Below, piece by piece: positions 315 to 4,279 of a DNA stretch of 42,191 nt. Under the pieces are notes generated by a model. That model did no database searches and was not told the origin of the DNA. It was given only the letters and a program-made list of their open reading frames with translations. The DNA lies in the IMG/VR virus record IMGVR_UViG_3300032287_002932, positions 1 through 42,191 of that record. The stretch is one strand, 5' to 3'. The position numbers were made by a program, and so were the translations under genes. The DNA is from a virus. Positions within the stretch are counted from its first letter, which is position 1. Each line of letters begins with the position of its first letter.

Positions 315-661
315 TGAAGTGTCGCCAATGCAATAGCAAGAACACACGTGTTACTTGCACTGATCACTTTGATACATTCACTAAGCGTTACTGTCGATGC
401 CTCGATTGCCATTCAAAATTTCGAACTGTTGAATACTATGAAGAACGTAAGCCAGGCCCTCCGCCTGGCACACCAAGAACACGTAACATAACGCGTGGTG
501 AGTCCCATGGTTCTGCAGTATTTCAAGAGAAGGACATCCGTATGATGCGCACTCTTTATCAACAAGGCACAACCTTGGTATTCATAGCAACTAAATATGG
601 GACAAGTTCTTCTTACGTGTCACGCATTGTCAACTACAAATCATGGAGTCACATTAAATGA
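314..661 (+). CDS. Zinc-ribbon and helix-turn-helix DNA-binding protein
   Basis: 115 residues. The first 40 residues form a zinc ribbon (CRQC near residue 3 and CLDC near residue 29, followed by FRTVE), like the N-terminal ribbon of NrdR regulators, but the NrdR ATP-cone is absent. The C-terminal part (IATKYGTSSSYVSRIVNYKSW) reads as a helix-turn-helix of the kind used by phage regulators and some homing endonucleases. It probably binds DNA as an early regulator. It is joined to its downstream neighbour by an ATGA overlap. Confidence 0.65.
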   Translation: MKCRQCNSKNTRVTCTDHFDTFTKRYCRCLDCHSKFRTVEYYEERKPGPPPGTPRTRNITRGESHGSAVFQEKDIRMMRTLYQQGTTLVFIATKYGTSSSYVSRIVNYKSWSHIK

Positions 662-954
662 CCGGTGCCAAGTACGACTTCAACATTGGTGATCGCGTAG
701 CCGAACGTCCCAAGTCACATGGGTTGTTTGCTGTAAGTAAAGAAGCTGAGGAGATTGTTAAACGCAATAGGTCTCAAAGGTATGGCACCATCGTTGGCTA
801 TGACACACAGCTAAACAAAAGCGGTAAACGCATGAACATGTTGCTTGTGCAATGGGATCACCTTAAGTCTCCAATGAAACATGCAAGATGTAGGATTTGT
901 CCCATTGATCAGCTTGCTACATTGACAAAACAAATTATTGTCCCGGGGGAATAA
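658..954 (+). CDS. Conserved phage hypothetical protein, SH3-like
   Basis: 98 residues. The protein begins with a GDRVAERP segment and later has YGTIVGYD and LLVQWDHL, alternating strands that suggest a small SH3-like or KOW-like beta barrel, then a C-terminal CRICPIDQL. I recognise no function. The ATG overlaps the stop of the zinc-ribbon gene, so the pair may act together or simply share translation. Confidence 0.55.
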   Translation: MTGAKYDFNIGDRVAERPKSHGLFAVSKEAEEIVKRNRSQRYGTIVGYDTQLNKSGKRMNMLLVQWDHLKSPMKHARCRICPIDQLATLTKQIIVPGE

Positions 955-956
955 CC

Positions 957-1112
957 ATGAACGTATCACTTGTTTGGGTCACGCCTCAAGCCGAAGAGTT
1001 GATCACACGCATGGCTCGGGTGTCAGCTCCAAAGAATCAAGGGAATATGGAGACTGCCCCTAAGTTGTTGCGTTATTTGATTACGCACCAGCATTGGAGT
1101 TTTAAAGAGTAA
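957..1112 (+). pseudogene. thyX: Truncated 5' remnant of thyX
   Basis: An ATG frame of 51 residues ending at TAA 1110-1112. By hand alignment about 30 of 47 residues match the start of the intact ThyX encoded at 1556-2209 (shared LVWVTP, MARVS, and a final HxHxS). It stops at the point where the family continues with a conserved PFEM-type segment; the last residues FKE are not thyX-like and come from the junction. It lacks all flavin- and dUMP-binding residues and cannot be a working enzyme. The HNH gene starts 4 bases later, and the AAAGAG that serves as its ribosome site lies within this frame. Confidence 0.8.
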
Positions 1113-1116
1113 ATTC

Positions 1117-1635
1117 ATGTCTGAATTAAAACAGTGCACTAGGTGCAAAGAAATTAAATCAATTGATTTGTTTCCACATATATCAAAAGAAAATAGAAAA
1201 CGCAGATCACAATGTAAACGTTGTTGTGTAGAATTGCAACGTAAATATTATTCAGATAAACCAGATCAATATAAAGACTATGTTAAAAAACGTAATCATA
1301 AATACCAAGGTATTTACAAAAGAGTTGCAAATCTAAAAACTTTTGGATTAACAGTTAAAGATTATGATGAAATGTTGATTGCGCAAAACAATCAATGCGC
1401 AATTTGTGGAACATTTAAATGTGGGTCAGGCAGGCGTTTTGCTATTGACCATTGCCACCATACTGGTAAGATACGTGGACTTCTTTGCTTGAGATGCAAT
1501 CAAGCAATTGGAAAGTTCCATGACAACTATTTCCTTTTACAACAAGCAGCAGATTATGTCGCAGGTCGAATTAGTGTGGGTCACCCCCAACGCAGAAAAC
1601 CTGATAGTGGAAATGGCGAGGGTATCAAATCCTAA
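1117..1635 (+). CDS. HNH endonuclease, recombination endonuclease VII type (homing candidate)
   Basis: 172 residues. N-terminal zinc knuckles (CTRC near residue 7, CKRC near 33) are followed by the endonuclease VII/HNH core: CAICG, then DHCHHTGKIRG, then LCLRCNQAIG, a beta-beta-alpha metal fold with a His-Asp-His centre. Such proteins nick or cut DNA and often act as free-standing homing endonucleases. The gene is much richer in A+T than its surroundings. The family normally ends soon after the ADY segment; here the frame runs 26 residues further, translating the start of thyX in another frame. It lies between a thyX remnant and the intact thyX. Confidence 0.85.
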   Translation: MSELKQCTRCKEIKSIDLFPHISKENRKRRSQCKRCCVELQRKYYSDKPDQYKDYVKKRNHKYQGIYKRVANLKTFGLTVKDYDEMLIAQNNQCAICGTFKCGSGRRFAIDHCHHTGKIRGLLCLRCNQAIGKFHDNYFLLQQAADYVAGRISVGHPQRRKPDSGNGEGIKS

Positions 1636-2209
1636 GAATGCAAAAAACACTGAGACTGCTTCGCGTTTATTGTCTTATTTGTTAAAACATAAACACTACT
1701 CTCCGTACGAAATGGCTAACATGTGTGTTGAAATCAACACGACACGTGCAATATCTGCACAAATTATTCGCCATCGTTCGTTTAGCTTTCAAGAATTTAG
1801 TCAGCGCTACGCTGATATCAATGAGCTTGGCTCAGCTGTTATCCCACACCTGCGTCGTCAAGACCACAGCAATAGACAAAACAGTATCGACGACTTGACA
1901 TCGGAAGATGTTGCCAACTTCTATCGGCGCATCAGTCAACTCTTTGAGGATACTGAGCATCTCTATCGTGAGATGGTAAGTCACGGCATTGCCAAAGAGT
2001 GCGCCAGGAACATCCTGCCGATGGGTACGCAGACTAAGATTTACATGAACGGTTCGCTCCGTTCGTGGATACATTACCTGCAGTTAAGAACTTCCAATGG
2101 AACCCAAGCAGAACACAAACAAATCGCAGAAGAAATCAAACAAATCTTCTGTGCACAATTCCCAGTCATTGGAGAAGCTGTGTTCTCAGGAGATCCAGGG
2201 ATTGCCTGA
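1556..2209 (+). CDS. thyX: Flavin-dependent thymidylate synthase
   Basis: 217 residues from ATG 1556, chosen because the protein then begins like the family and like the upstream remnant; the earlier in-frame ATG at 1508 is inside the HNH gene. ThyX methylates dUMP to dTMP using methylenetetrahydrofolate, NADPH and FAD. The signature is intact near residue 72 (RHRSFSFQEFSQRY), as are NILPMG and the LRSWIHYLQLR segment with the substrate-contacting arginines. The start overlaps the 3' end of the HNH gene by 80 bases with only a weak ribosome site. It serves the phage dTMP pool together with dCTP deaminase at 33940. Confidence 0.92.
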   Translation: MSQVELVWVTPNAENLIVEMARVSNPKNAKNTETASRLLSYLLKHKHYSPYEMANMCVEINTTRAISAQIIRHRSFSFQEFSQRYADINELGSAVIPHLRRQDHSNRQNSIDDLTSEDVANFYRRISQLFEDTEHLYREMVSHGIAKECARNILPMGTQTKIYMNGSLRSWIHYLQLRTSNGTQAEHKQIAEEIKQIFCAQFPVIGEAVFSGDPGIA

Positions 2210-2424: not shown

Positions 2425-2661
2425 ATGACACCAAACGAATACCAACGCAACGCACGTTTTAATTGTTTGGCAGAGTATGATCACTTTGCTAAACCAAATG
2501 ACTTTATCGAAGTAACCGAATGGTACAACGGTGAAGGCTTTGATGTACATCTCAGCACTAGCGCTGGTGAACAGCGTATGTCATTTAGCTGGGGTGAGTA
2601 CCAAGCATTGAAAACAACCCTTGGTGACTGGGTTGAAAACAATTTGGAGGATGAAAAATGA
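2425..2661 (+). CDS. Conserved cyanophage hypothetical protein
   Basis: 78 residues from ATG 2425 (MTPNEYQRNARF). A longer frame starts at TTG 2368, but the ATG gives the N-terminus I remember for this family. It contains AEYDHFAKPNDFIEV and SFSWGEYQALK, motifs I have seen in unknown cyanophage proteins. Function unknown. The stop overlaps the next start by four bases (ATGA), so it is part of the same translational unit. Confidence 0.6.
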   Translation: MTPNEYQRNARFNCLAEYDHFAKPNDFIEVTEWYNGEGFDVHLSTSAGEQRMSFSWGEYQALKTTLGDWVENNLEDEK

Positions 2662-2981
2662 CTAACCAACATCCAATTATTCCACCACTTGAGCTGTTAG
2701 ATAAGTGGGACAACCTGCCATTAAGCACTCAACAGATCTTTGTGATTGCCGCCCAATGGGGCGCGGACCAGGAGCTGGAGGCGTGTTGTGAGTGGGTATC
2801 TAAGTATCTCCCATACCTTGGAGATTTCCCCATGCCTGAAGACAAACTCCGCGTCGCACGCCGCCCCAAGCTGTCAAGCTTAAAGGAGCAAGCGCTTGCG
2901 GCGTTGCTGCACCTTGACCACGGACAGCACAACGAACGCTGCTTGATCATTCGCCGCGCCTTGGAGGCGCTACCTGAATGA
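2658..2981 (+). CDS. Modular cyanobacterial/cyanophage hypothetical protein
   Basis: 107 residues. The segments WGADQELEACCEWV, SLKEQALAAL and a C-terminal IIRRALEALPE form a modular protein type I recall from freshwater and coastal Synechococcus and their phages, where parts are shuffled between small proteins. Function unknown. The gene is GC-rich at its 3' end compared with thyX and the HNH gene, suggesting exchange with the host gene pool. It overlaps both neighbours by four bases. Confidence 0.65.
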   Translation: MTNQHPIIPPLELLDKWDNLPLSTQQIFVIAAQWGADQELEACCEWVSKYLPYLGDFPMPEDKLRVARRPKLSSLKEQALAALLHLDHGQHNERCLIIRRALEALPE

Positions 2982-3364
2982 CTGAACCTCTAACGCGAAA
3001 CAGAGTTGACATCAAAGCTATTTTGGCCGACCCCTTGCTCCGAGAAGAGTTAATTGAGGGTGCTACAGATTTCATTTGTAAAGTTGAAGGTATTCGCCCT
3101 TGTAAAGGAGATTTGGAAATGACTGAACTATCACCACAAGCGCAGGCGGTGTTGGATGCTTGGAGCGACAACACCCTTTATACCAAAGACAAAGAACCCC
3201 AAGCACTTGCCGCCGCCCTCCGCGCCGCTGCGGATCAGGTGGTGCCGGAAGAGACGTGGCTAGGAACAGAAGAGCCTTACTACGCCTATTACCAACAACG
3301 GTGGGATACGCGCCGCGATCTCCTCGCCATCGCCGCCGAGCTGGAGGGTGTGACCTCACGGTGA
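2978..3364 (+). CDS. Fused modular cyanobacterial/cyanophage hypothetical protein
   Basis: 128 residues that look like two modules joined. Residues 1-41 (DIKAILADPLLREELIEGATDFICKVEG, quoted in part: LLREELIEGATDF) form one; from the internal Met near residue 48, MTELSPQAQAVLDAW to AIAAELEG forms another that I recall as a stand-alone protein. The internal ATG at 3119 has an AAAGGAG ribosome site just upstream, so the second module might also be made separately. Function unknown. It ends the first rightward operon, before a good promoter. Confidence 0.6.
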   Translation: MTEPLTRNRVDIKAILADPLLREELIEGATDFICKVEGIRPCKGDLEMTELSPQAQAVLDAWSDNTLYTKDKEPQALAAALRAAADQVVPEETWLGTEEPYYAYYQQRWDTRRDLLAIAAELEGVTSR

Positions 3365-3428
3365 TCAAGCCGCAAGGTCATTCACTTACCAGCCAGGGGA
3401 AGCAGCAGAAACCCTGACTCCCTCGGGG

Positions 3429-3458
3429 TTGACGCTGCTCTGCTACGCCCCATATAAT
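3429..3458 (+). promoter_or_regulatory. Sigma-70 type promoter
   Basis: TTGACG at 3429-3434 and a perfect TATAAT at 3453-3458 are 18 bases apart. The predicted start of transcription, about 7 bases beyond the -10 box, falls at the first base of the leader hairpin at 3465. It would drive the GP88-family gene, the polymerase and the genes beyond, probably early with host RNA polymerase. Confidence 0.75.
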
Positions 3459-3464
3459 CATACA

Positions 3465-3488
3465 CGTCCTAAGCATGACGTTAAACTG
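3465..3488 (+). promoter_or_regulatory. Leader hairpin element, copy 1
   Basis: CGTC, loop CTAAGCAT, GACG, then TTAAACTG. It lies 23 bases before the ATG of the GP88-family gene and at the expected 5' end of the transcript. Three related copies occur at 6395, 7496 and 10610. The following 23 bases contain no Shine-Dalgarno sequence. Confidence 0.6.
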
Positions 3489-3511
3489 TTAGTCAACTCA
3501 ACTCAACTACC

Positions 3512-4279
3512 ATGAAACTTCTCAAGTTTTCTACCGGCAACGGCAAGCTCAAGAATCGTTTGATCTTCTCGCTGCCAGCGGGATACGCCTGCCCTCACGC
3601 GGGTGTGTGTAAGACCATGGCGGATCGTGCCACTGGTGCCATCATTGATCTGCCACAGTACAACGGCACAACAGCAGATGAGTTCCGCTGCTTTGCTGCC
3701 ATGGCAGAGGTCAGGCCAAACGTACGGGAGGCACGCTGGCACAACTGGGATTTGCTGCGTGATGTTATGTATGGCAATGGGAACCAGGCATTGTTGTTGC
3801 GTGATCTAATTGACATGTCGCTCAGCATGCAACCACCAAAAGAACTGGTGCGTGTTCACGAGTCAGGAGATTTCTGGACTGAGAACTATCTCAAAGCATG
3901 GCTGATGGTTGCTGAGCAACGACCTAAGCAAAAGTTCTATGCTTATACCAAGTCCCTTGGGATGTGGCACAATCTTAAAGATCTGATACCATCCAACTTT
4001 TATCTCACCGCATCCTATGGCGGTACGTTGGATTATATGTTGCTTAAGTATCCAGACGTTTACACACGCATTGCGTATGTGGTGTACACGGAAGAAGAAG
4101 CAGCAGAGCGTGGACTTGAGATCGACCATGACGATAGCCACTGCCTTGGTGACAAGTCATTCGCACTCTTGGTTCATGGGTCCCAAAGGGCAGGTACTCC
4201 TGCATCCCAAGCGTTGTCTCAACGCAAGAAGGATGGGAAGTTTGTTGGGTACGGTAAATCAATGCAGAAGATATCCTGA
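3512..4279 (+). CDS. GP88-family phage protein
   Basis: 255 residues. The start (KLLKFSTGNGKLKN, FSLPAGYACPHAGVC) and the later HESGDFWTENYLKAW and FYAYTKSL match the phage GP88 family as I remember it, which has conserved cysteines near the N-terminus and an aromatic-rich core. The family is common in phages of actinobacteria and cyanobacteria but its role is unknown. It is the first gene after the 3429 promoter and the first leader hairpin, and precedes the DNA polymerase, so an early role in DNA metabolism or host takeover is plausible but unproven. Confidence 0.72.
   Translation: MKLLKFSTGNGKLKNRLIFSLPAGYACPHAGVCKTMADRATGAIIDLPQYNGTTADEFRCFAAMAEVRPNVREARWHNWDLLRDVMYGNGNQALLLRDLIDMSLSMQPPKELVRVHESGDFWTENYLKAWLMVAEQRPKQKFYAYTKSLGMWHNLKDLIPSNFYLTASYGGTLDYMLLKYPDVYTRIAYVVYTEEEAAERGLEIDHDDSHCLGDKSFALLVHGSQRAGTPASQALSQRKKDGKFVGYGKSMQKIS

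Follow-up and report, generated by a model that had tools for sequence, protein, structure and literature searches.

A phage nuclease gene that may carry its own repair patch: a foreign, recoded 5' end of thyX in a probable cyanophage

In the viral DNA analysed here, the gene thyX appears to have been entered by a putative homing endonuclease gene that brought a foreign thyX 5' end with it, so that the old 5' end was left as a fragment and the gene was rebuilt in frame. The window, that is the whole stretch analysed, is an IMG/VR virus record of 42,191 bases, and it was analysed at full length. On its plus strand, a thyX 5' fragment is followed by an Endonuclease VII-type gene and then by a complete thyX. 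In our estimate a nuclease-driven break, one-sided repair and a foreign, recoded 5' end is the best explanation of this order, with a probability of roughly 0.78. The features of the locus are as follows.

658 to 954, plus strand: flanking gene of unknown function; 97-99% amino acid identity in L148, L149, L150 and L151
957 to 1099, plus strand: native thyX 5' fragment, codons 1-48, part of a 51-codon open reading frame at 957-1112
1095 to 1097, plus strand: TGG (Trp47), putative nuclease target, adjoining the end of the native sequence
1100 to 1116, plus strand: foreign 17-nt leader ahead of the nuclease gene, with the stop of the fragment inside it
1117 to 1635, plus strand: putative homing endonuclease of the Endonuclease VII type (DHHRN), 172 amino acids; Pfam PF02945, E 2.3e-22 (1117-1632)
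1556 to 1702, plus strand: foreign thyX 5' end, the presumed repair patch, from the start codon to about codon 48, assigned from identities and tree
1697 to 1699, plus strand: TAC (Tyr) in the patch at the position of the native TGG, a putative cut-resistant recoding
1703 to 2209, plus strand: native thyX body, in frame again; 96-98% nucleotide identity to L148, L149 and L151 over codons 50-115
3512 to 4279, plus strand: GP88-family gene, used as downstream synteny marker; Pfam PF17338, 96-98% amino acid identity in L148, L149, L151 and L081

The initial annotation had described a 51-codon thyX reading frame, a nuclease reading frame and a full thyX ending at 2209, and all of them are present. 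It had also let the fragment end at the junction. A thyX fragment it is, but its native part stops at about 1099, and the last residues of the reading frame come from the inserted leader, which has no match in the alignment with empty-site relatives. With the Pfam profile Thy1 the fragment scores 22.3 bits (E 1.3e-4), short of the curated cut-off of 24.8; the stretch 1556-2206 gives E 7e-47 and covers profile positions 1-191 of 191, a full-length domain. The intact thyX most likely starts at the ATG at 1556, since this start is conserved in relatives. It lies out of frame within the endonuclease reading frame, with an overlap at 1556-1635, which agrees with the earlier observation that the first thyX codons lie inside the nuclease gene. 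The earlier description of that gene as an AT-rich HNH gene was likewise borne out by the Endonuclease_7 domain and by a G+C content of 32% for 1100-1555 against 46% for the window. An assembly artefact is unlikely, because a second contig, L081 (IMGVR 3300046777_001757), has the same gene order and an identical leader, and its fragment, nuclease and thyX proteins are 97-98% identical to those of the window. In Synechococcus phage S-EIV1, an uninterrupted thyX, a small gene, a DNA match to the GP88-family gene of the window and DNA polymerase A follow one another; from this gene order, the window is probably a cyanophage distantly related to S-EIV1. Near thyX, several divergent copies per locus of the phrog_32006 family (about 107 amino acids, unknown function) were also seen (window 2658-2981; L081, L084, L086 and others).

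Relatives with an empty site were located by a scan with the gene directly upstream (658-951), which gave 13 loci. Among others, L148, L149 and L151 have an uninterrupted thyX, and their flanking genes (the upstream pair, 2368-2658 and GP88) are 90-99% identical to those of the window. Over codons 4-48, the fragment agrees with L148 at 132 of 135 nucleotides and with L149 at 128 of 135 (95-98%), against 80 of 135 with the intact copy of the window itself. Over the same codons the intact copy agrees with L148 and L149 at 78 and 76 of 135 nucleotides (56-58%), and with L082, a thyX with a related nuclease ahead, at 117 of 135 (87%). From codon 50 to 115 the intact copy agrees with L148 at 194 of 198 nucleotides and with L149 at 191, against 163 of 198 for L082. 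Native sequence runs to 1099, just past the TGG, and resumes between about 1699 and about 1717 at the corresponding codons; patch and body join seamlessly, in frame. By these identities the fragment and the body are native and the patch is foreign, as had been predicted: the fragment sides with uninterrupted relatives, the first 48 or so intact codons with another lineage, and the rest of the gene with the relatives again. The patch of the window is not purely of the L082 type, and among the informative codons from 1 to 48, 22 are L082-type and 4 native-type. Over 47 codons, the fragment of L081 (675-827) is 1 nucleotide away from L149, and that of the window (957-1109) 4 nucleotides from L148; since these fragments share a joint but are nearest to different relatives, recombination with intact alleles seems to take place in the fragment region.

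The trees give the same picture. In the 5' tree (codons 4-46, 24 rows), one branch with support of 100/98 divides 15 native-type from 9 patch-type rows, with the fragments on the native side and the intact copies on the patch side. A clade of the fragments and intact copies of the window and L081 was rejected (AU p 5.8e-7), and so was one group of the intact copies with the fragments, L148, L149 and L151 (p 0.0008). The body tree covers codons 50-172 in 17 rows, with L085 omitted for an indel. There the window stands with L148, L149, L151 and L081 (100/99), and L166 with L003 (98/99), at whose thyX no nuclease was found. A single body clade of six patch carriers (window, L081, L082, L084, L086, L166) was rejected (p 3.6e-71). 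Because the body tree splits the patch carriers, the nuclease and its thyX 5' end are, on this phylogenetic evidence, a unit that has travelled among different thyX bodies.

A search with the nuclease gave 67 loci. All seven at 70-97% identity have the nuclease at thyX, and the next matches reach at most 53% identity over part of the protein only. Nine contigs matched a DNA pattern built on the overlap of nuclease and thyX, with L162 and L166 as new ones, and L180 came from a scan for the patch peptide. The unit was found in 11 contigs (window, L081, L082, L083, L087, L084, L085, L086, L162, L166 and L180), and L082, L083 and L087 encode the same thyX. The 5' fragment is present in 4 of the 11 (window, L081, L162, L166) and was not found in the other 7. 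In L085, L086 and L180 the nuclease follows closely behind a small gene or its remains, and in L162 that gene precedes the fragment. This neighbourhood suggests that the fragment was lost in the former three, with a direct insertion at the start codon as the alternative. In L166 only the C-terminal part of the nuclease is left. Several frame breaks were seen in the thyX body behind the patch of L162 (1079-1720), from decay or sequencing error. Elsewhere, a 34%-identical relative of the nuclease lies downstream of the GP88 gene in L151 (8927-9376).

The nuclease itself carries the motif CxxC-DHxH-R-CxxCN. The pattern CX2-4C, DHxH, R, CX2C, N was present in all ten nucleases checked (window, L081, L082, L084, L085, the 5' nuclease of L086, L162, L180, L153 and L208), and it is the one described for homing endonucleases with the DHHRN/Endonuclease VII motif such as F-CphI (PMC6083498). 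Endonuclease_7 is the sole Pfam family matched up to E 0.001, which sets the protein apart from LAGLIDADG and GIY-YIG nucleases. The match covers residues 74-148 of 172 and is thus C-terminal, as in the endonuclease clade, and not N-terminal, as in resolvases. The thyX unit resembles F-CphI, as the latter is described in PMC6083498, in the catalytic pattern, the C-terminal motif and the location in a phage beside the presumed target gene. The psbA gene that accompanies F-CphI in its own phage is, however, shielded by a group I intron according to the same source. Such an intron was sought around the nuclease of the window, and there was no Rfam match up to E 1 within 600-2600; in the thyX unit, protection would come from the recoded thyX end.

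The place of recoding is the joint itself. The fragments end at the same codon in two different insertions, with CATTGG in the window and L081 and CACTGG in L162; the fragment of L166 ends one codon earlier than Trp47. The upstream joint is variable and lies 17 nt before the nuclease ATG in the window, about 2 nt before it in L162 and inside the nuclease in L166. Each event has one constant edge, at the border of patch and body where the break is presumed, and one variable edge, as one-sided repair predicts. No clear microhomology was seen at the joint of the window. Of 112 distinct thyX that do not have this nuclease ahead (among them a few loci where another nuclease follows thyX), 104 encode Trp at codon 47; none of nine with it does, and these have Tyr (five) or Phe (four). 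In these counts identical proteins were taken once, rows gapped at the codon were dropped, and some loci came from a patch-like seed; before the loci from that seed were added, the figures were 80 of 85 and 0 of 8. Fisher's test gives p 2e-9, a value that overstates the association because the nine recoded patches share descent and represent one or few events. Trp47 is also lacking in 8 of the 112, and at nine Trp-less loci without a known nuclease (L151 not among them) a crude motif search detected none in the vicinity. The thyX of L151 is also free of a nuclease. Of its informative codons up to codon 41, 26 are of the native type and 2 of the patch type, and all seven of codons 42-48 are of the patch type, so that the recoded site is present. 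Such an allele could be what an excision left behind, through recombination of the two 5' copies, or else a short conversion tract.

Units of the mirror-image form stand at the 3' end of thyX. L153 and L208 have Endonuclease VII-type nucleases, with a mutual identity of 76%, downstream of thyX and a native 3' remnant after them; in L208 this remnant comes about 765 bases past the nuclease, with small genes between. The joint of nuclease and remnant on this side is thus at the nuclease C-terminus or about 765 bases beyond. The start of both remnants coincides with the Trp codon of the motif RSWIHYL or falls just behind it; at this position the intact copy of L153 has Phe and that of L208 Tyr. 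Of 115 other thyX, 111 have Trp there, against neither of these two. S-EIV1, outside the 115, has Tyr at the 3' site, and no nuclease was recognised at its thyX. In L208 the body and the remnant are closest to L001 (0.86 and 0.89), and the intact 3' end is closest to L153 (0.77) and then to L004 (0.76). In L153 the body and the remnant are nearest to the thyX of L002 (0.77 and 0.75), and the intact 3' end to L208 (0.77).

A third nuclease lineage lies behind thyX, again with a remnant, in L086 and in L288/L289, so that L086 has a nuclease at both ends of thyX. This nuclease has no Pfam match, and its relatives are annotated as HNH endonucleases. L086 and L288/L289 have one common joint and therefore may descend from a single insertion. 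The body of L086 is nearest to L003 and L166 (0.88 each), its remnant to L085 (0.91) and L003 (0.89), and its intact 3' end to L288 (0.92, and reciprocally 0.92); the remnant of L288 is nearest to several others (0.84). The joint lies several codons past the 3' Trp, which the intact copy keeps, and no Trp codon marks it. Two further observations concern this end of the gene. In L209, L210 and L211, thyX is followed, after about 90 bases, by a relative of the L153 nuclease with 44% identity; no thyX remnant was found there, and the Trp of the 3' site is kept in L209 and L211, the two that were read. In L020 (4004-5032), a near-identical duplicate of the thyX 3' end has no nuclease between the copies and is a plain duplication.

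Other genomes were covered as well. In cellular genomes, nine stretches fit a pattern, and none of the nine encodes a relative of the nuclease. The nuclease of the window, that of L153 and the second one of L086 match 1214, 1729 and 39 named-phage records, respectively, with 38.5, 37.7 and 36.5% as the best identity among the matches listed. Because all these matches are below 60% identity, no isolated phage with such units was found among the named-phage records.

The following course of events is proposed. The putative homing endonuclease would break thyX alleles that have CAYTGG at codon 47. On the side of the thyX body, the break would be repaired by homologous copying from a donor thyX, leftward through the donor 5' end and on through the gene of the nuclease. 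Where copying stops, the other broken end would be joined illegitimately. The old 5' end would then remain as a fragment ending at the cut site, with the nuclease inserted and thyX rebuilt in frame. The foreign 5' end of the rebuilt gene, with Tyr or Phe in place of Trp47, would no longer be a target. We infer the cut at codon 47, the immunity of the patch and the route of repair from the position of the joints and the recoding. The initial annotation had proposed that an HNH element entered thyX with a foreign 5' end and that the gene was kept whole, and the identities, the trees and the empty sites support this.

The two 5' copies in tandem around the nuclease could also come from a duplication of the thyX 5' end, whose first copy decayed and into which the nuclease landed. 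Plain duplications do occur, as the 3' piece of L020 without a nuclease between the copies shows. The two copies of the window share 80 of 135 nucleotides, however, where the fragment shares 132 with an uninterrupted relative, and the rejected clade of fragments and intact copies speaks against their being closest to each other. With uninterrupted thyX in L148, L149 and L151 in addition, neither observation that was to count against an insertion was made, and a duplication is hardly credible.

The seamless, in-frame switch from patch to body would equally be expected if ordinary homologous recombination between co-infecting phages had moved the block of nuclease and thyX 5' end, with the nuclease as a non-cutting passenger, and nuclease genes are described at boundaries of genetic exchange between phages in PMC10448857. 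Ordinary exchange would, however, replace the 5' end and leave no remnant; moreover, two different insertions stop at one codon and differ in their other joint, and thyX shows such events with three nuclease lineages. We therefore regard a mere passenger as unlikely. It was also considered that the overlap of nuclease and thyX is a stable pair beneficial to the phage, for example by coupled translation, and that the fragments are secondary accidents. The conserved overlap fits this, as do the 7 of 11 carriers with the nuclease before thyX in which no fragment was found. Against it, the patch moves among thyX bodies, the nuclease is truncated in L166, and 112 distinct thyX proteins exist without this nuclease ahead, so that a stable pair is very unlikely. 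A nuclease-driven break with one-sided repair and a carried 5' end is thus preferred.

Several known systems share parts of this course. In fungal mitochondria, mobile reading frames are described in atp6 of Allomyces, in atp6, atp9, cox2 and nad3 of Glomus, and in rps3 of Ophiostoma (PMC3630166, PMC4019555). As reported in these sources, an endonuclease reading frame brings a foreign gene end and the native remnant groups with relatives, as in thyX; in these cases it is the 3' end that is exchanged, and the enzymes named are of the LAGLIDADG or GIY-YIG type. In the window, on the other hand, an Endonuclease VII-type nuclease is involved, the replaced part is the 5' end of a phage gene, and the Trp codon that ends the fragment is missing from the patch. 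Of the traits of the Allomyces and Glomus hybrid genes, the native remnant beside the nuclease and the carried end that completes the gene in frame are seen in the window; replacement of the 3' end is seen not there but in L153, L208, L086 and L288/L289. The comparison with Allomyces that had been drawn from the window was therefore apt, and its mirror-image 3' form occurs in phage thyX as well. In phages, free-standing nucleases are described that split genes, mobE in nrdA of Aeh1 and mobA in gene 60 of T4 (PMC2988022). They too lie within a functionally important part of a phage gene. According to that source these genes stay split and the pieces assemble as proteins, whereas thyX is made whole by the carried end. 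One-sided homing of the T4 td intron, with homology on one side of the break and illegitimate joining on the other (PMC2988022), is the same repair route as that proposed for the thyX unit; td is an intron system, while the thyX unit would be a natural, repeated outcome in which no intron was found. In searches of the open-access literature, no 5' version of self-patching and no phage case was recognised.

Three scans looked for divergent repeats on both sides of a nuclease. The first covered the 67 nuclease loci and four further places, of which two had flanks too short and 69 were tested. Hits came from 16 of the 69, four of them at thyX (L081, L086 on the 3' side, L153 and L162). The other 12 were read by eye as psbA and psbD, which are paralogues, on either side of a nuclease. 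Endonuclease VII-type genes between psbA/psbD-like genes were observed in L088, L090-L095, L098, L102, L104, L106 and L109. In the second scan (75 of 80 loci plus L153, 76 tested), the hits at thyX were L153 and L208, and the others (L227, L230, L262) look by eye like repeated structural proteins. The third scan (79 tested) hit thyX in L287 (on the L086 contig), L288 and L289, and five places outside thyX, L298, L302, L348, L364 and L365. L298 was set aside as a poor match with a stop in it, and L348 and L364/L365 as nuclease or zinc-finger paralogues by eye.

L302, on a contig of 69,951 bases, is a candidate case of such an event outside thyX. A 36-codon reading frame (2883-2990) begins like a phage pyrophosphatase gene, and the resemblance ends next to a Trp codon. 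It is followed by a nuclease of the third kind (2995-3546) and by an Inorganic Pyrophosphatase gene from 3551 (PF18823, E 1e-29), so that fragment, nuclease and intact copy (2883-3898) are ordered as at the thyX of the window. The two 5' ends share 41 of 54 nucleotides. The one uninterrupted relative found, L368, agrees with the fragment at 39 of 54 and with the intact end at 37 of 54, and its first residues resemble those of the fragment; because it matches both ends about equally, the intact end may be foreign or may stem from a duplication. The intact pyrophosphatase of L302 retains the Trp codon.

Versions with a 3' end are known from fungal mitochondria; apparently new here are the 5' end, the phage gene and the Endonuclease VII-type nuclease, by which the principle is extended to phages, to the other gene end and to another nuclease family. 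A nuclease gene can, on this reading, enter an important gene with neither intron nor intein and leave it whole by means of a recoded piece. Whether phages harbour recurrent self-patching homing elements that carry the 5' or 3' end of their target gene, those of the Endonuclease VII type in thyX attacking a Trp codon (TGG) and carrying Tyr or Phe instead, is a wider proposition for which we see about even odds; the pyrophosphatase candidate suggests a wider use of self-patching. If it is true, the element, the immunity and a working gene would arrive together after one-sided repair, and a TGG target would be unable to escape by silent change. The thyX alleles found in nature include donor-type, empty, hybrid, decayed and patched-without-nuclease forms. 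Since all these types exist, the presumed rule of immunity, Trp to Tyr or Phe at the break, is directly testable. Hybrid genes of nucleotide metabolism arise in this way, and they would mislead single-gene trees of phage thyX.
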